Positions 4,921-49,549 of a DNA stretch of 64,000 nucleotides are shown in pieces. The stretch is from Micrasema longulum (Eukaryota; Arthropoda; Insecta; Trichoptera; Brachycentridae), in the NCBI GenBank assembly GCA_022494885.1, contig JAGVSM010000188.1, positions 102,075 to 166,074 on the forward strand. Direction: 5' to 3'. Under the pieces are notes generated by a model. The model was not told the origin of the DNA and searched no databases. It saw only the letters and a program-made list of their open reading frames with translations. The first letter of the stretch is position 1; every line of letters begins with the position of its first letter. A program made the position numbers and the translations under genes.

Positions 4921-5403
4921 CTATCGGTTGAGTCCCGACAGAACGAGCCTCTGAGTGTTGTAAGGGTTTCTGCCTACCGGCACCCTTTGGGTCGGCAGGC
5001 CGGAGAGCCCTCGGACGTAGGTGTATGTCACTGGAGGTCTCAAGATCTTCTTAGGTTGAGAGGATTTCTTCTGGGGTCTCGTGCGCGCTTTGTCGGTGTC
5101 AGAGTTGCCGCTGCTGCAGGAGTGAGATCGAGATGATATGCTGAGGTTCTGGAAAACTTTTCTGAACGAGGATGTGGTGGATCTGTGGCGTTTTCTTCTC
5201 TCGGGGGAGTCGTCGCTGCAGGTGTCGCTGCTGGAGTATATTTCTCTAGGGTCGGGGGAGACAGCTGAGCTGGTGTGCGATTGGCTGGAGTTGGAGTCCG
5301 TGCTGGAGCTCCGGCAGTCCTCGTCCTGCTGTCGAGCGCGGCCCAGTCTTCTGCCCAGCGCCCTCAGGAGGCGCGCCCCTTTTACGTTCTCCGCGTCGTC
5401 CAT
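4921..5403 (-). CDS. Intronless gene for an unrecognised Ser/Arg-rich 160-residue protein
   Basis: I do not recognise this protein. The frame is open for 160 codons and is markedly GC-rich in strongly AT-rich surroundings. The first ATG gives MDDAENVKGARLLRALGRRL. It sits in a strong initiation context (GCCGCCAATGG), and the frame upstream has no ATG before an in-frame TAG. Residues 9-25 form a basic, possibly amphipathic segment. Residues 30-110 are Ser/Thr/Asp-rich with basic patches such as RRKRH, typical of a disordered, phosphorylatable region. The C-terminal 45 residues are more structured in composition and contain VTYTYVRGLSGLPTQRVPV, which looks like a conserved motif. There is no signal peptide or membrane segment, so it is probably intracellular. 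A TATA box and initiator lie 291-322 nt upstream. The compact intronless form with a TATA promoter suggests a tightly regulated gene, but the function is unknown. Confidence 0.75.
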   Translation of the reverse strand: MDDAENVKGARLLRALGRRLGRARQQDEDCRSSSTDSNSSQSHTSSAVSPDPREIYSSSDTCSDDSPERRKRHRSTTSSFRKVFQNLSISSRSHSCSSGNSDTDKARTRPQKKSSQPKKILRPPVTYTYVRGLSGLPTQRVPVGRNPYNTQRLVLSGLNR

Positions 5404-5694
5404 TGGCGGCCACACTACGATGACCGGGAGCGGCAGAATCGGAGAAGGTATTTTAAGAAGTTTCTGATAAAACTAAATTTTACATGTAAACACGCAAGTT
5501 TTTAGAATTCGTAAAAAGCTTTTCCAACTTTTTTACATTCACTTCAAAACGTGTGTTTAATTCAGATCACTTGTCTTTCGTTTTAAGTTTTAAAAACGAG
5601 TTAAGAATACAAAATATTTATCTCGTCACGTATCATTCACTGAAAGTATATTTTTGTTCAGAGAAGCGTTCGCACTGAAAGCTGGAGATAAACT
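5404..5694 (-). promoter_or_regulatory. Inferred 5'UTR with three upstream ATGs
   Basis: This lies between the inferred start site and the ATG of the 160-residue gene. It contains an 11-codon upstream ORF beginning at 5636 and two ATGs followed directly by TAA (5538 and 5485). Start-stop pairs of this kind generally lower translation of the downstream frame, which suggests translational control. No splice sites are needed to link promoter and coding region. Confidence 0.45.
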
Positions 5695-5725
5695 GAGTGA
5701 GGGAGGTTTCCCTCGAGCTTATATA
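5691..5725 (-). promoter_or_regulatory. TATA box and initiator
   Basis: On the minus strand TATATAAG (5725-5718) is followed 31 nt later by an arthropod-type initiator TCAGTT whose A is at 5694. The spacing is what is expected for RNA polymerase II TATA promoters. It points at the intronless gene at 4921-5403. Confidence 0.6.
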
Positions 5726-6109
5726 GCCTTCCCCGGGGGTGGCGAGAGTGGGGAAGCCACCGACTCCCTGAGTTCTCGTGGTGTGGGGCGGAAGTGTGTT
5801 GTACCTATTGTATTGCACGTTTACCAAGTACCGTGGGTACATTGGAACCAAACTTTTAATTGATTCTCCAGACGTAGTTTCTACCCGGTTATCAAATCAT
5901 CAGTCACGTTTCAATAAATGCATCACTTGTGGACTTACATCAACTTTGATTATGGGAAATACATGCTTTAGAAATATTGGTTTCTTCAAATAAAACATCG
6001 ACATATATTACAGAATATAAAGTATAATCACTAACAGGACTTTTGACTTGTTATTGAGATCACATAGCATTCTGCGAACTTCAGTATTCATTCAATATTT
6101 TAAAATTCT

Positions 6110-13290: not shown

Positions 13291-13587
13291 AAAAAAATAT
13301 ATTTTAAGGTTTGTAGTTTGTAGTGAGTATTTACAAATGGAAATAATATTAAAAATGAAGAAAACTTGTAAGAGTAATTAAGAATTAAGAATGGAAATAA
13401 AGAATGAAAAACATACTCAGATGTAAAAATAAAATAAAATAGTAATAACATTTTTTTTTTTTTTTTAAAAAAGGAAAAACATAAACACATATTTATTTTA
13501 AGGGATTCAAAGAAACGATGAGAAGAATCTTTAAGTGAAATATAAGACAGTAAATTTAAATTTAGGTCAATTTAAAAAACATATCAA

Positions 13588-13735
13588 AATATTTGTATAA
13601 AACCACTTACCGACTTTTTTATGTCTACCGGTTTCCAAACGTACTCGTCTCTTCGTCGGTACACCAATTAAATCAAAATGCAAAACCCCGTATACACCTT
13701 CAGATTACTTATTGCCTGTACTTATGTCTTCAAGA
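13588..13735 (-). mobile_element. Hammerhead element, left inverted arm
   Basis: From ATTTGTATAAAACCACTTAC to the LINE insertion point near 13735, this arm is the inverse of 14435-14580. Both carry a hammerhead-like motif. Together they bracket about 1 kb, most of which is an inserted LINE tail. Confidence 0.6.
13621..13665 (-). ncRNA. Degenerate hammerhead-like motif
   Basis: Minus strand: core CCGACGA in place of CTGANGA (position 4 changed), an extra A, stem II GAGACG/CGTTTG around AGTA, then GAAA, palindromic ACCGGT, A at the cleavage position, and stem I GTGTA/GACAT. The architecture is kept but the core is mutated, so it is probably inactive. Confidence 0.55.
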
Positions 13736-14318
13736 ATATGCCTCCGTGGTCTAGTCTCCATTTTATGTCAATCGCATAAATCAAATTGAATCAGTCCAAC
13801 ATCGCTTGCTTCGAAAATTAGCGTGGATGCTTGGACTAGAGATAAGTAATTGTTCTTATGCTGGTATAGAGTCAATGTTAAATATTTCTATTCTACAAAA
13901 AGTAGAACTAATATTGATTCCAAATATATGTTCGGCATACTAAATGATATAATCGATGCTCCATCATTACTGGGACAAGTAAAATTCAACATTCCGACTT
14001 GTAGGTTGAGAAACAATGAAGTACTGTTGTTCATCAATCAGCATAAAAAAAACTATGGTCTCAATTCTCCAATAACCCGTCTTTATCGTATTGTTAACTC
14101 AAGACAAGATCTGGATTTTTTGGTTTAAGTTTACAACGATTTTAATGAGCACTAAATAAATAGTCCAGATCTTGTCTTTATGTCCCTTATGTTTGTCAAT
14201 GCTTCTTTTCTTATTTTTAAAAAATGTTTTTAACAACTCTTTTATTGTTATATTTAAACCCTTTAAATTGTATACATGGACAATGTCCGTTAATAAATAA
14301 ATAAATATACCTATTAAA
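13735..14318 (+). mobile_element. 5'-truncated LINE 3' end (family 2)
   Basis: The frame 13850-14128 resembles a LINE polymerase C-terminus, with NIPTCRLRNNEV and NSRQDLDF. The upstream sequence translates in pieces to QHRLLRKLAWMLG, also LINE-like. The 3'UTR ends in TTAATAAATAAATAAATA. The same family recurs inverted at 25717-26170 and, as 3'UTR only, at 19600-19730. A short inverted repeat (AGACAAGATCTGGA at about 14100, its inverse at about 14163) brackets the stop codon. Confidence 0.65.
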
Positions 14319-14580
14319 CTCACGTCCCTCCCTTCATTCCCCTCTTTTTTTTTAAAACTGTTTATCCCACAATATCAAACATTTTCAAAACATAGTCATT
14401 GCATGTAAGGGTTGCCAATGCATGGCATGTTGGTTTTATATTTTTTATTAAAAACTATGGTGAAGGTGTATGGTGGGTTTTGTAAGCTGGTTTAATTGGT
14501 GTCCTGATGAAGAGACGGGTACGTCTCGAAACCGGTAGACATATATGTATAACAATAAGTGATTTTATACTCATATTTAA
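14318..14580 (+). mobile_element. Hammerhead element, right arm
   Basis: Similarity to 49311-49490 runs from CCCTCCCTTC through the TTTTATATTTT region to the hammerhead. The last 145 bp are the inverse of 13588-13735. Confidence 0.6.
14497..14543 (+). ncRNA. Hammerhead ribozyme-like motif, intact core
   Basis: Stem I is GTGTC (14499-14503) paired with GACAT (538-542 of the same kb). The core CTGATGA is at 14504-14510 and is followed by one extra A. Stem II is GAGACG/CGTCTC, a perfect 6 bp, closed by GGTA. Then come GAAA (14528-14531), the self-complementary ACCGGT as stem III (14531-14536), and A14537 at the cleavage position. All invariant core bases of the known hammerhead fold are present. 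A short palindromic stem III is known from hammerheads in Penelope-like retroelements, which usually act as dimers. Confidence 0.75.
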
Positions 14581-14639
14581 TAAAATTTAGTAAGAAGTAA
14601 CTATGCTAGAAAATAAAAATCTAGCAGTGGAATAGCGGG

Positions 14640-14900
14640 GTTGAAACCACGCACCTGCCAATCCGGAATTCGCGACGCTACTTCCGGGATCACAACCATC
14701 GCTTGTGGTAAGACACTTGCCTTTCGCACGAGGGTTTTAGGTTTGATTCCCGGTGTGATCACAATAATGATTAAAGGTGATTTTTCGCAAGCCTGTATCT
14801 GTGCTGTCCCATCAGTGAAAGCAGTTGGTACCCGAAAACTATTTTAACCCGCCCGGCTCGTTACAGAGATGTAACCGGCGCGGCGTTGCAAATTACACCT
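14640..14900 (+). mobile_element. tRNA-like SINE remnant
   Basis: GTGGTAAGACACTTGCC and GGTTTGATTCCCGG resemble A- and B-box regions of a SINE head. Near 14640 there is also a partial B-box-like GGTTTCAACC on the minus strand, suggesting two joined fragments. Confidence 0.4.
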
Positions 14901-25185: not shown

Positions 25186-25716
25186 AGGTTTCAAAATACA
25201 ATATGAATATTTTGGCTTAAAATATATGTGGAGCTACTCATAAAAGCTATAAAAAGTAGTACAATAGATATTTCACCCGTGCAACTGTACTGCTACTGCC
25301 TTGCGTGCTTAGCTACAGAAACAGCGATCTTGTTAGTCTCTTATTTTCCGAGAATTTCATTTTATTTTTTTATTAAAAACATTATACATACATAAGTTGA
25401 TACACAGTTGATAGAGACACTACCAGGAACGACCTATGCCTGAGAACTGCCCCGACTTGCTCAAAAATCCGTGTTGAGTCAGGGTACTTGCAATGCATTC
25501 ATAAACATTCATGTACATACATACACACACACACATATACCCGATCCTTGCATATTATAAACATATTTTTTTAACTAAATAAAGTTTTTCATTGAAGTAA
25601 ATTTAACAGAATATTGTTCGTTGAAGTAAATATAAATCTTGTACAACATAAACAAGGTAAAAAAATAATACAACTCCCAAATCAAAAAATACATACAATT
25701 GTTTTTTTTAGGTAAT

Positions 25717-26170
25717 TTATTTATTAACGGACATTGTCAATGTATACAATTTAAAGGGTTTAAATATAACAATAAAAGGATAGTTAAAAACATTTTTAAA
25801 AAATAAGAAAAGAAGCATTGACAAACATAAGGGACATCAAGACAAGATCTGGACTATTTATTTAGTGCTCATTAAAATCGTTGTAAACTTAAACCAAAAA
25901 AATCCAGATCTTGTCTTGAGTTAACAATACGATAAAGACGGGTTATTGAAGAATTGAGACCATAGATTGAATTTATGCTGATTGATAAACAGTACTTCAT
26001 TGTTTCTCAACCTACAAGTCGGAATGTTGAATTTTACTTGTCCCAGTAATGATGAAACATCGATTATACCATTTAGTACGCCGAACATATATATGGAATC
26101 AATATAAGTTCTACGTTTTTGTAGACTAGAAATATTTAACATTGACTCTATATCAGCATAAAAATATTTC
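25717..26170 (-). mobile_element. 5'-truncated LINE 3' end (family 2)
   Basis: Minus-strand frame 25921-26142 shares NIPTCRLRNNEVL with 13850-14128, and the 3'UTR is collinear through to the TTTATTTATTAACGGACATT end. The stop region again carries the inverted AGACAAGATCTGGA pair. A one-base frameshift relative to 13850-14128 spoils the C-terminus. Confidence 0.65.
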
Positions 26171-26439
26171 CTTCGATACCGTGATACCGTTTGTGGTGGA
26201 TTTGTTCCAAACAGTCACCTAAAAAAGACATATTAATAACGGTGACCGTGAAAACCTTCGAACCTACATACATATATATTCACACACATGTATTTACATA
26301 TTATAATTTCAACATAAATATTTGGTTTATTTTTGTATGTCGAATGCATTTAAAAAAAAACTTTTTTTTTAAAAAGAGAAATACTTCAGTTTTTGGTATT
26401 TACTCAAATTTTTAAATTTTCAGACCATTTCTTACAAGT

Positions 26440-26550: not shown

Positions 26551-26608
26551 TTACTAATTATGATAAATGTTATTAAATATTTGTATGTAACCACTTGCCG
26601 ACTTTTCT

Positions 26609-26653
26609 ATGTCTACCGGTTTTGAGATGTATCCGTCTTTTCATCAGGACACC
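26609..26653 (-). ncRNA. Hammerhead-like motif, one core change
   Basis: Minus strand: stem I GTGTC/GACAT, core CTGATGA, an extra A, stem II around GATA (AAGACG/CATCTC, with mismatches), then AAAA in place of GAAA, and ACCGGT as stem III. The G12-to-A change should abolish cleavage. Confidence 0.6.
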
Positions 26654-26731
26654 AATTAAACTAACATGCAAACCAACATGCAAAACCCACTACACACTTT
26701 CACCATAGTTGTTGCACAAAAATATAAAACC

Positions 26732-26754
26732 AACGTCTCGAAACCGGTAGACAT
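26732..26754 (+). ncRNA. Hammerhead 3' half
   Basis: CGTCTCGAAACCGGTAGACA is the 3' half of the 14497-14543 motif. The 5' core is absent, so it cannot fold alone, but it is the inverse partner of 26609-26653. Confidence 0.5.
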
Positions 26755-26839
26755 AAAAAAGTATGTAAATGGTTATACACAAATATATCATAACATTTAG
26801 TTAAATGTTTGACCACAAAGTTTATGCTTTAAATATTAA

Positions 26840-31695: not shown

Positions 31696-31884
31696 ATCTG
31701 CCTTAAATATCTGTTGGAAAAGGAAGCTTGTACAATACATGTAAATAATGCTCATATCAAACATGGTTCACAAAGTTACGATTTTCGGATTTTATGAAAA
31801 CAAGAGGACTCGTTACGACTCGAAAACGTTGCGTAATTTTTGGATAAATGAACATTAAATAGTTAATTTTCACTATCTGTAAAT

Positions 31885-32534
31885 GACTTTAAATGCTCTT
31901 CTTAATGCTTGGCAATCGCGATGGGAATCTTCCTCTTCAGGGAGGGTTACCTTTCTTTTTTTTCCTTCAATCCGCCAGCGCTTAGAATCTTCTTGGGTTA
32001 TCCCCGATCACTGGACTACGCAGTTTTTATCAGGTCATGGTAAATTTAATCAAAAAATATTTGTTTTTAATATTGTTGACTCTCCTTCGTGCTGCTGCGG
32101 ATATCCTAACCAATCTTCTGAACACATCCTGTGGTCTTGTCCCTTTCCCCTTCTCTATGATTACCGAATGGAGCTTCTCGCTACTATCCGTGGCCCTGTT
32201 ATAGGTCCTGTCGGATATATAGATCTGGTGGCTTCTAGAAAGAATTTCAAGGCTTTTAAAAAGTTTTGTAATCATTTCGGCGAATTGATTATGTCCAATC
32301 AATTTAATCCCAGTCAGTGAAGAATTCACTTCCCTCTCTTCTCAATCCAATGAAGTACATATTATGTACTTCTGGATTACTTTCTTTCAACACAAAGATG
32401 CTAAGACTACCAGATTTCAGAGAGCTCCTTCGGGCAGCTTTTCTCGTTTGACAACGAGCAAATTTTCCGTGTATGTGGGCACCGCCAAGGAGACTTATGT
32501 CCTCAGATGCGGTGTGCGGTATGTGGTGGGTAAG
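31885..32534 (+). mobile_element. R1-clade LINE, 5'-truncated, 12-bp duplication
   Basis: CTATCTGTAAAT flanks the insert exactly (31873-31884 and 32535-32546). The frame to 32320 carries the R1-clade C-terminal pattern: WQSRWESS, GRVTFLFFPS, IPDHWTTQFLSGHGKFNQK, then a CCCG...HILWSC zinc-knuckle-like motif. The 215-bp 3'UTR ends in GTGGTGGGTAAG with no poly(A), as in R1-type elements. The frame is open from the breakpoint, so the insertion is fairly recent. The first ATG of the open frame is flanking DNA, not element DNA. Confidence 0.85.
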
Positions 32535-32549
32535 CTATCTGTAAATTTG

Positions 32550-35579: not shown

Positions 35580-35993
35580 TTAATAGTGGGAGTAGGCGGA
35601 CACAGCGGGGTATCCGGAATAGGCGACTGGAACTCCGGATGTGTATGCGACCGGAGATCCGGCGCCATATGCGAGCTGAGATCCCGCTGTGTAGGCGAGG
35701 GGAGATCCGGCGGTGTAAGCGAGGGGGGACCCAGCGGTGTATGCGAGAGGGGATCCAGCGTATGCGAGCGGAGATCCGGCGGTGTATGCGAGAGGAGATC
35801 CCGCGGTGTATGCGAGGGGAGATCCGACGGTCTTGACCACCTGGGTGCTGTAGGCGGACACAGCGGGGTATGCGGAGTAGGCAGATACTGCCGGGACAGC
35901 GGAGTAGGCGGACAAGGCGGGGTAGCCGGAGTACGCCACGTGGGATACGGAAGGCTTGGCGGCGCACACGGCCACGAGGGCAGCGAAGAACAG
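35580..35993 (-). CDS. Low-complexity cuticle protein, exon 2
   Basis: This encodes residues 5-141 of a secreted structural protein of the insect exoskeleton. With exon 1 the N-terminus is MFKI followed by LFFAALVAVCAA and a KPS start of the mature chain, a clear signal peptide. Next come YPALSAYS / VPAVSAYS / YPAVSAYS units, then TQVVKTV, then eight to nine copies of an octapeptide GSPLAYTA (variants GSQLAYGA, GSPVAYTS), and a closing YPAVSAYSHY that echoes the N-terminal units. There is no chitin-binding Rebers-Riddiford motif and almost no charge. Such Ala/Tyr/Ser-rich cuticle proteins are thought to bind matrix by tyrosine cross-links and hydrophobic packing. One octapeptide lacks a codon, in frame, consistent with slippage. 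The acceptor TTTTTTCAG precedes 35993. The region is GC-rich relative to its flanks. Antisense frames across the repeats are shadows. Confidence 0.9.
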   Translation of the reverse strand: MFFAALVAVCAAKPSVSHVAYSGYPALSAYSAVPAVSAYSAYPAVSAYSTQVVKTVGSPLAYTAGSPLAYTAGSPLAYAGSPLAYTAGSPLAYTAGSPLAYTAGSQLAYGAGSPVAYTSGVPVAYSGYPAVSAYSHY

Positions 35994-36976
35994 CTGAAAA
36001 AATAAAGTTAAAATTATTTTCAAATGAACACCATATTATGTAAATATTTCAATTTCAGAATTCTGAAGATTGTAAATTACTCACTCCGACTGAAAATTTC
36101 AAAAAAAGATACATCATAGAATTACTACTTTTTTTATATATATAAAGTAATTTTAATTATATAAGGTACAAAAAATGGAAAAATTTCATACAAATACCTA
36201 ACACAAAAAATAAGACAGCTAAATTGTCTATTTAACTAGTTATATTATATTTTCATTTTGTAAGTGCCTACTGGACTCATACAAATATATAAAAAAAATA
36301 AAACTCTACAAGAAAAATGAATAATGTAAATAATTTAGGAAAAAAATTAGATGATTTTTGTACTTGAAAATTAAATAAAAAACGCAAAGAAATAAATCAA
36401 ATTTTAGCTTTAATTATGAAATAAATAAAATATTTATTTTATAAAAATAAAAGAATTGATTAAACATGCAGCCAACAAGTGTCATTTAATATGTACATAA
36501 TTGAATATTTTTTTGAAATCGGCACATCTTTGAGAAGCGGTCAAGATCTTTCAGCTTAACGAATTTATGCTAATTTAAACCTTAGCCTTCTTAATGGAGT
36601 TGCTAGTGTATGGAAATAAAGACAAATTGAGATTGCTTTTTCTCAAGACAAAACAATAGTGAAACCAATTGAAAAATTAGTAAGTTCTTTTGAGTACAAA
36701 CCAAAACGAGCAGTCAATTATAGTGAAGTGTATTAAATTAAACTTAACTGTTTTAAACATAAATATATTACACTATTCTTTTTTTTTAAATATCGTTCAA
36801 AATAAACATAATATTTATTACTCATCTTTAAATTTGTTTGAATAATAACAAAAGAAAGAGAAAAAAAATCAACACAGTAATAATAATAATTGGCTAATTT
36901 ATATAACGCTTTGTAAGAAATTCCTTTAGGGGGGCTTTACAATTTTGTACCAATGAAAACTTAGGTTCTAACTGAG

Positions 36977-41190: not shown

Positions 41191-41288
41191 CCCCTTAATT
41201 TAATTTATATTTAAAACATTAACTTCGTGGTCAAACAATTCTATTAATATATTTTTTAATTTGGTATGTCACATTTTCCGGACTTTTA

Positions 41289-41330
41289 TATGTTTACCGG
41301 TTTCAAAACGTACACGTTTCTTTGTCAAGT
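41289..41330 (-). ncRNA. Decayed hammerhead-like motif
   Basis: Minus strand: TTGACAA-like core, AAACG/CGTTT stem II around TGTA, then GAAACCGGT. The core is mutated and stem I is not convincing. It is recognisable only by family similarity to 13621-13665. Confidence 0.4.
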
Positions 41331-43999: not shown

Positions 44000-44830
44000 A
44001 TCTGATAGTGCATAGAAAGCTGCATTGGTAAACCAGATGCAGCGTTTTTTGATCATATGTTGCATAAAAGTACGGTGATCAGTCTAACGCAGATTCCAGC
44101 CCGGGGACAGCTTGCCCACCACATACCGCACACCGCATCTGAGGACATAAGTCTCCTTGGCGGTGCCCACATACACGGAAAATTTGCTCATTGTCAAACG
44201 AGAAAAGCTGCCCAAAAGAGCTCTCTGAAATCTGGTAGCCTTAGCATCTTTGTGCTGAAAGAAAGTAATCCAGAAGTACATAATATGTACTTCATTAGAT
44301 TGAGTAAAGAGGGAAGTGAATTCTTCACTGACTGGGATTAAATTGATTGGACATGATCAATTCGCCGAAATGATTACAAAACTTTTTAAAAGCCTTGAAA
44401 TTATTTTTGGAAGCCACAAAATCTGTATATCAGACAGGACCTATAACAGGGCCACGGATAGTAGCGAGAAGCTTCATTTGGTAATTATAGAGAATGGGAA
44501 AGGGACAAGACCACAGGATGTGTTCAGAAGATTGGTTAGGATATCCACAGCAGCACGAAGGGGAGTCAACAGCCCGGGGACAGTGAAACCTCTAAAAAAA
44601 ATATTCTACATTGACTCCACTGTAAAACCCTGAGACCTCAAGTATGGTAGACAAACAAACCAATCGCTACACTACGAGGTGGCTTCGATTCGATTTCCTT
44701 TTTCAGGATTTTTACCTAAAAGTATACATCGAGTCGAATACACTCGTCTAGGATTTTAGTTTTATTATGATAACTGTATAACTGTATTTTTTATTCATCC
44801 AGACACACAGTTTACCAATACAGTAACTGT
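44000..44830 (-). mobile_element. SINE-A split by an R1-clade LINE
   Basis: 44000-44110 carries the inverse of the SINE-A 3' part (GTAAACCAGATGCAGCGTTT, GGTGATCAGTCTAACGC). 44584-44830 carries the middle and 5' part (GAGACCTCAAGTATGGTAGA, CGAGTCGAATACACTCGTC, CATCCAGACACACAG). Removing the LINE and one 14-bp duplicate restores collinearity with 24785-25110. Confidence 0.7.
44111..44569 (-). mobile_element. R1-clade LINE, 5'-truncated, 14-bp duplication
   Basis: CAGCCCGGGGACAG flanks it exactly (44097-44110 and 44570-44583). Sequence and 3' end match 31885-32534. The coding part is shorter and broken. The long plus-strand frame at 44316-44633 is antisense to it. Confidence 0.8.
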
Positions 44831-49320: not shown

Positions 49321-49500
49321 TCCCACCCATTTTTTTAACTATACCAAAAAATCAAACATAAAAAAAGGGTGCTCGTTGTGTTAGTTTCTAATAGCATGTG
49401 TCCTATCAGCACGCTGGTTTTATATTTTGCTACTCTGCGGTAAAGGTTGAAAGATGTAATTAATGTCCGGATTAAGAGACGGGTACGTGGAAGAAGACAC
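49311..49500 (+). mobile_element. Truncated hammerhead element
   Basis: It is collinear with 14318-14520 (CCCTCCCACCC, TTTTATATTTT, GTAATTAATGTCC). The hammerhead part at 49462-49490 stops after GAGACGGGTACGTGG, so the 3' half is lost and the core is changed (GGATTAA). Confidence 0.5.
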
Positions 49501-49549
49501 ACAAAATTCAGTAAATAGATGAATATTTACTGACATCAACTCAATATAT

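Follow-up and report, generated by a model that had tools for sequence, protein, structure and literature searches.

A minimal hammerhead ribozyme as a probable pseudo-LTR component of a high-copy Penelope-like element family in Micrasema longulum

Introduction

Hammerhead ribozymes of Penelope-like elements (PLEs) are known already, and their role is unsettled; the excerpted text of one account calls it still a mystery (PMC7761336). According to partial descriptions, the minimal type I PLE hammerheads (Cervera & de la Pena 2014; Lunse, Weinberg & Breaker 2017) have a palindrome as helix III and are mostly dispersed, with some copies in the pseudo-long terminal repeats (pLTRs) of PLEs and cleavage expected in the dimer. 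The same traits are found for a motif at 14499–14542 on the plus strand of a 64,000-nucleotide stretch of the Micrasema longulum (Trichoptera) genome, which is analysed here and called the window. With a probability of about 0.92, we take this motif to be the pLTR hammerhead of a high-copy PLE family of the insect and the copy carrying it, copy A, to be the remnant of a 5′-truncated insertion; the window family would be a further PLE hammerhead, ordinary for its kind. Compared with the PLE hammerheads above, as the citing descriptions give them, it stands out by an additional A, nearly fixed, between A9 and G10.1, by a CCGG palindrome and by C as the prevailing base at position 7.

In the excerpted text on the Poseidon PLE of Anolis carolinensis (PAc), reverse transcription starts 111–118 nt into the open reading frame (ORF) and the ribozyme cut lies at +26, about 85–92 nt apart (PMC11167929). 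As far as that text goes, PAc and the window family are alike in the hammerhead (near the pLTR/ORF junction in PAc), in two internal starts of reverse transcription and in a long end about 85–92 nt past the cut (PMC11167929), and the agreement in distance would support, short of proof, a shared insertion mechanism. Unlike PAc, the window family has no conserved start codon at its ribozyme (majority core CTGACGAAG). The Penelope element of Adineta vaga is described, in the portion cited, with inverted pLTRs, most often head-to-head, with 5′ truncation and with a tail of about 31 bp that may be present at one of the ends (PMC3846280); the window family shares this anatomy of head-to-head inverted pLTRs, truncation and a one-end tail, whereas the word hammerhead is absent from the main text on the Adineta element (PMC3846280).

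Retrozymes, in the sections cited, are direct tandem repeats of about 150–400 bp (PMC7229834, PMC7761336). Animal non-LTR retrozymes resemble the window family in having a type I hammerhead in an AT-rich animal repeat, but they are short direct tandem repeats without protein-coding sequence, and head-to-head inverted pairs fall outside their excerpted description (PMC7229834). For hammerheads together with Trichoptera, the only ribozyme work found in the partial records concerns a cave-cricket satellite.

The hammerhead motif of the window and its predicted dimer

All conserved core positions of the hammerhead can be read directly in the window sequence (Table 1), comprising a CUGANGA...GAAA core, the A15.1-U16.1 pair, H17 and stems I and II, plus one A after A9. 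On its sequence, the motif is a genuine minimal type I hammerhead with palindromic stem III. A preliminary description made from the letters alone had named these positions, a 5-bp stem I (GTGTC/GACAT) and a cut after 14537, all of which we recover. Its perfect 6-bp stem II holds in that GAGACG pairs with CGTCTC, but the pairing over 6 bp requires A 14511, which it did not mention, to be left unpaired.

A strict descriptor (core CTGATGA, 0–1 inserted base, stems I and II of at least 4 bp, GAAA, H17, and a stem III of at least 2 bp closed by A15.1-U16.1) matched this one site in the 64-kb window. First-order Markov sequence of window composition contained 7 sites with the core and stems I and II of at least 4 bp in 2.24 Gb of one strand, corresponding to 0.0004 per window on both strands, and 1500 dinucleotide shuffles of the window contained 2 sites, or 0.0013 per window; as the descriptor was composed after the motif had been seen and the window was picked for the motif, these figures are a sign of non-randomness and no formal p-value. 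Sites with stem I of at least 5 bp and stem II of at least 6 bp were absent from the same 2.24 Gb.

Folded alone, the 44-nt monomer has a minimum free energy (MFE) structure of −15.2 kcal/mol with three extra pairs through the core. The unconstrained MFE structure of two strands is exactly the double hammerhead, at −33.9 kcal/mol, which was recovered from 0 of 2000 mononucleotide shuffles of the motif. The earlier expectation that the self-complementary ACCGGT stem III is a short form working as a dimer is thus matched by the best-energy fold, and dimer cleavage of the motif is likely in this model. Across 48 complete family copies the double hammerhead is exact in 19 and reaches at least 85% of its pairs in 21, the other 27 falling short. 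In a modelled read-through transcript of copy A and its inverted neighbour, copy C, 40 of the ribozyme's 44 nt pair with copy C. Because the monomer fold blocks the core and copy C would sequester the motif in this way, cleavage is expected mainly in tandem-copy RNA or between RNAs, with little at the window locus.

Association with Penelope-like coding sequence

The window's own assembly (584 Mb, 5184 contigs) was searched with the 161-nt repeat that surrounds the ribozyme, giving 1602 first-look candidates of which 40 were scored. Of the 28 loci selected by the ribozyme, five have PLE endonuclease (EN) sequence immediately upstream of the repeat (L044 on both arms, L052, L053, L056 and L060), as judged by tblastn with reverse transcriptase (RT)/GIY-YIG frames of the genome. 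The reverse test, with the EN region of L044 as query, gave 2982 first-look candidates, 40 scored and 20 fetched. The repeat follows 3′ of EN in the same orientation in 18 of these 20 loci (17 of 19 when L083, the query's own place, is set aside), at a distance within 260 nt in 16 and of about 600–700 nt in two (L085, L095); L089 and L096 have no repeat within the locus. An opposite-strand, head-to-head copy of the repeat is present in 15 of the 20, L089 having one in the adjoining piece L104, and RT-region matches occur upstream of EN in several (L084, L089, L096). A related ORF of the genome, L068, with 607 aa, contains RVT_1 (6.5e-13) and GIY-YIG (2.5e-5) in one frame; among the 120 of its 386 relatives that were listed, those with names come almost entirely from insects, a single one bearing a bacterial metagenome-bin label, and RVT_1 is present in nearly all of them.

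As the repeat adjoins PLE endonuclease in both EN- and ribozyme-selected loci, we place the ribozyme in the pLTR of a PLE. The remark in the preliminary description that hammerheads of this form are known from PLEs fits this association, whereas its suggestion of a non-autonomous ribozyme-bearing element does not.

The anatomy of the family was derived from 96 hits in the ribozyme-, GIY-YIG- and EN-fetched loci and the window, after removal of the duplicates L035 and L083. Neighbour pairs less than 2 kb apart number 45, and the head-to-head arrangement prevails with 35 of them, against 7 direct and 3 tail-to-tail ones. The outer limits of the copies are not sharply defined. Model positions 145–159 hold the 3′ ends of 44 hits and positions 180–187 those of 38, the other 14 lying elsewhere, so that the two main classes lie about 35 nt apart; in the family majority sequence, which is cut after position 95, they correspond to 50–64 and 85–92 nt beyond the cut. 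The head-to-head pairs comprise 27 with a long and a short end, 4 with two short ends (including copies C and A of the window), 1 with two long ends and 3 unclassifiable ones. Tailed and untailed ends are thereby mixed in 27 of 32 classifiable pairs, compared with about 16 of 32 if the ends were independent (P about 5e-5). The family accordingly shows two features of PLEs, namely inverted head-to-head pLTRs with 5′ truncation, evident from variable upstream extents, and an optional 3′ tail of about 30–40 bp, evident from the two main end classes.

Six family copies (A–F) were found in the window by profiles of the motif surroundings, copy A alone having an intact core. Upstream of copy A, similarity is shared with one other copy (L047, 78%) and extends about 136 nt before 14443. 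Copies C and A stand head-to-head, 734 nt apart, the interval being mostly a different dispersed repeat. The preliminary description saw no polymerase frame here, and we likewise found none: in a six-frame motif scan of the window the GIY-YIG motif was absent, and by eye the frames around the 5 short RT-box-like matches did not resemble RT; 19 distinct window frames compared with Pfam gave no RVT_1 and no GIY-YIG, with a single sub-threshold zf-RVT match at 31883–32320. The window copies lack a polymerase because, in our interpretation, they are 5′-truncated pLTR remnants.

Six copies without a polymerase might also be read as a stand-alone non-autonomous ribozyme element, an animal retrozyme or an element resembling a short interspersed nuclear element (SINE), that merely co-occurs with PLEs, and many ribozyme-fetched copies do share just 0–300 nt upstream with other fetched copies. 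We nevertheless judge this very unlikely. Retrozymes are direct tandem repeats, but direct pairs are few here and head-to-head pairs prevail; no tandem array was found at the ribozyme site, and PLE coding sequence adjoins the repeat. Moreover, the upstream similarity is continuous into PLE endonuclease coding sequence, and the short copies are explained by the spread of 5′ truncations.

State of the ribozyme across copies

A first alignment, largely drawn by ribozyme similarity, contained 60 copies, 48 of them complete over the 44 nt. The core is intact in 30 of the 48, all 30 with a stem I of at least 4 and a stem II of at least 5 bp, and of the other 47 complete copies 6 share the 44 nt of the window without a difference. 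At position 7, where hammerheads tolerate any base, 36 of 56 copies have C, 19 have T and 1 has G. The extra base is A in 54 of the 55 rows that have a base there. A fairer sample drawn by EN (33 aligned copies, 21 complete) has A in 23 of 23; 8 of its 21 complete copies retain an intact core, and its majority sequence is intact. Since the ribozyme is barely more alike across copies than its flanks, copies seem to be left to decay once they have inserted.

Within the family the copies resemble one another too closely for pair covariation to be informative, and a comparison is provided by a second PLE family. At L077 (G000:C1659), positions 2453–2500, a minimal hammerhead with different stem sequences has CUAG as its palindrome and a U inserted between A9 and stem II; a PLE endonuclease fragment lies upstream, an inverted repeat reaches into the ribozyme, and this hammerhead also folds as a double hammerhead. 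That the plan is shared while the letters differ is the strongest sequence argument here for the structure being what counts, and the possible novelty is that two PLE families conserve an additional base at this place, between A9 and stem II. In the L077 hammerhead an ATG spans A9-U-G10.1, a position that might resemble that of the Anolis PLE start codon.

These comparisons bear on whether the motif could be a chance or relic string that resembles a hammerhead and never had a catalytic role in the element. Its catalysis is a prediction from sequence and folding, the consensus core has no counterpart to the conserved extra A, the monomer fold blocks the core, and the ribozyme is hardly more conserved than its surroundings. 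Set against this are the low chance expectation, the intact majority sequence in two samples and the L077 family with its palindrome, single extra base and double-hammerhead fold. An extra A at the same place also occurs in the plus-strand hammerhead of the chrysanthemum chlorotic mottle viroid (CChMVd), where, according to the excerpted report, A moderately lowers the trans-cleaving rate and U raises it 3–4 fold (PMC3705267). We therefore regard a chance or relic origin as improbable, to about the same degree as the stand-alone element.

Even less credible is domestication, with the ribozyme processing a transcript of the host at this locus. Copy A has kept its core, whereas decay or truncation has affected the five other copies of the window, as domestication would have it, but the identical 44 nt elsewhere in the genome mean that intactness needs no local selection, and the read-through fold with copy C would tie up the motif.

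Several findings weigh against our assignment of the motif to a PLE pLTR. Sampling by ribozyme similarity favours intact copies, and the fairer figure for copies with an intact core and both stems kept is the 6 of 21 in the EN-drawn sample. Mean identity is 94.1% for the ribozyme and 93.1% and 91.4% for its flanks; as it barely exceeds theirs, the family copies alone show no selection on the ribozyme. Of the 30 core-intact copies, 13 stay below 85% of the double-hammerhead pairs, and 4 of the 18 core-broken copies reach it, since the dimer fold tests the stems and not the core. Among 20 loci fetched with the general GIY-YIG model, one of which is a bacterial uvrC (L064), the repeat occurs only in L080, in opposite orientation and 5′ of EN, and another hammerhead within the 1.5-kb flanks only in L077; as 1 of these 20 has the repeat, it is the property of a single PLE family, of which the genome has several. 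The fetched loci contained no copy of this family in which direct pLTRs enclose an intact ORF, and no direct 5′ pLTR was seen at L089 and L096, extended by L104 and L103. Finally, in the excerpted text on PAc, the ribozyme required the PAc protein for cutting, and mutating the ribozyme left in vitro insertion unaffected (PMC11167929).

Proposed mechanism

The assignment to a PLE pLTR draws on the observed sequence, anatomy and association with PLE coding DNA and suggests the following course. The element would be transcribed, and its RT/GIY-YIG protein would copy the RNA from either of two internal start sites, about 50–64 or 90 nt beyond the ribozyme cut. New insertions would usually be 5′-truncated and in many cases have an inverted pLTR beside them; copy A of the window would be one of these, of which the pLTR, the ribozyme and the short end are left. 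Within RNA transcribed from tandem copies, or where two RNAs meet, we infer that ribozymes pair through ACCGGU:ACCGGU into the double hammerhead and are cut after A17, which would trim multimeric PLE RNA to unit length. Such processing would be the role of the ribozyme. As a lone monomer, with a stem III of 3 bp and no loop, and opposite an inverted partner, the window copy would be inactive or nearly so.

More speculatively, and with a low probability, the one-base insertion after A9 (A here, U in the L077 family) could be built into insect PLE hammerheads, where slowed monomers, together with inverted insertion that hides new copies, would confine cleavage to dimers from tandem master copies and make the ribozyme a sensor of multimeric element RNA. 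The thousands of candidate copies, some with the identical 44-nt ribozyme, and a second family of the same plan offer material for probing dimer cleavage in vivo and the extra core base.

Covariance models and viral contigs

Rfam gave no match at gathering score over the whole window, nor at E ≤ 10 over 14300–14900. A missing covariance-model match had been proposed beforehand as evidence against the motif, yet the test proved unfair. None of three phage loci with descriptor-positive hammerheads reached gathering either, and one of the three matched a hammerhead model at the site (L027, 28.2 bits vs 56.3), so that the silence of Rfam on the window motif says little. A plain Rfam scan can overlook minimal PLE-type hammerheads.

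Scanning IMG/VR with CTGATGAN{12,26}CGAAACCGGTH yielded 34 stretches, and the minimal plan (stems I and II of at least 5 bp, no stem III loop) was present in 0 of the 34. Three (L015, L027, L029) proved to be ordinary hammerheads whose stem III has a loop, which rules out that all 34 are chance matches. Those of L015 (from 9868, plus strand) and L029 (708–742, minus strand) went unreported by the Rfam hammerhead models even at E ≤ 10. In L027 (IMG/VR 3300033463_006484, 5328–5992), two sub-gathering twister-P1 matches (E 1.5e-7 and 1.1e-4) surround the hammerhead at 5568–5639 in one viral contig, with start-to-start distances of 240 and 373 nt, forming a cluster of self-cleaving ribozymes.

Other features of the window

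Table 1. Positions of the ribozyme parts, the family copies and a neighbouring repeat in the window.
Feature	Position	Strand	Remarks
Hammerhead stem I	14499–14503 (GTGTC) / 14538–14542 (GACAT)	+	5 bp
Hammerhead core CTGATGA	14504–14510	+	
Extra unpaired A	14511	+	Between A9 and G10.1
Hammerhead stem II, GAGACG-GGTA-CGTCTC	14512–14517 / 14522–14527 (whole 14512–14527)	+	6 bp; loop GGTA
GAAA	14528–14531	+	
CCGGT	14532–14536	+	Palindromic ACCGGT (ACCGGU in RNA) at 14531–14536
H17 = A	14537	+	Predicted cut directly 3′ of A17
Copy A	14307–14598	+	5′-truncated PLE end (putative), pLTR with ribozyme, short (untailed) 3′ end; profile part 14450–14598; 5′ limit approximate
Copy C	13586–13715	−	Inverted pLTR fragment, head-to-head with A; ribozyme decayed (CCGACGA)
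Other dispersed repeat	13845–14303	+	Between C and A; second copy 25715–26173, minus strand, 94%; without Pfam match
Copy B	26561–26720	−	pLTR, ribozyme decayed (GAAA to AAAA), short 3′ end
Copy D	26733–26838	+	Head-to-head partner of B, 12 nt apart; starts in stem II, without complete ribozyme; long (tailed) 3′ end
Copy E	41206–41329	−	Truncated at ribozyme, core decayed, long (tailed) 3′ end
Copy F	49455–49545	+	pLTR fragment, strongly decayed

The dispersed repeat between copies C and A looks, by eye, like the end of a non-LTR retrotransposon. A tRNA-like promoter-box motif at 14690–14800, shortly 3′ of copy A, is probably a SINE head by eye, and ARAGORN reported no tRNA. An inverted repeat of 466 nt with 95% complementarity joins 32074–32539 and 44106–44571, and a frame overlapping it has the sub-threshold zf-RVT match. 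On the minus strand, a repetitive AYSAVPAVSAYSAYP-type ORF at 35580–36035 with a 24-bp tandem repeat appears cuticle-protein-like by eye.

A minus-strand ORF with DUF4797 lies at 4921–5472, its nearest relatives being three proteins at 88, 74 and 63% identity. Among the 120 of 210 matches listed, the next relatives are mostly from butterflies and moths, at about 44–53% where most of the query is covered, and those from beetles are weaker. Elsewhere in the assembly, L064 (G000:C3360) carries a uvrC-like gene beside a sodium:solute symporter gene, a bacterial contig (symbiont or contaminant) in an insect assembly.
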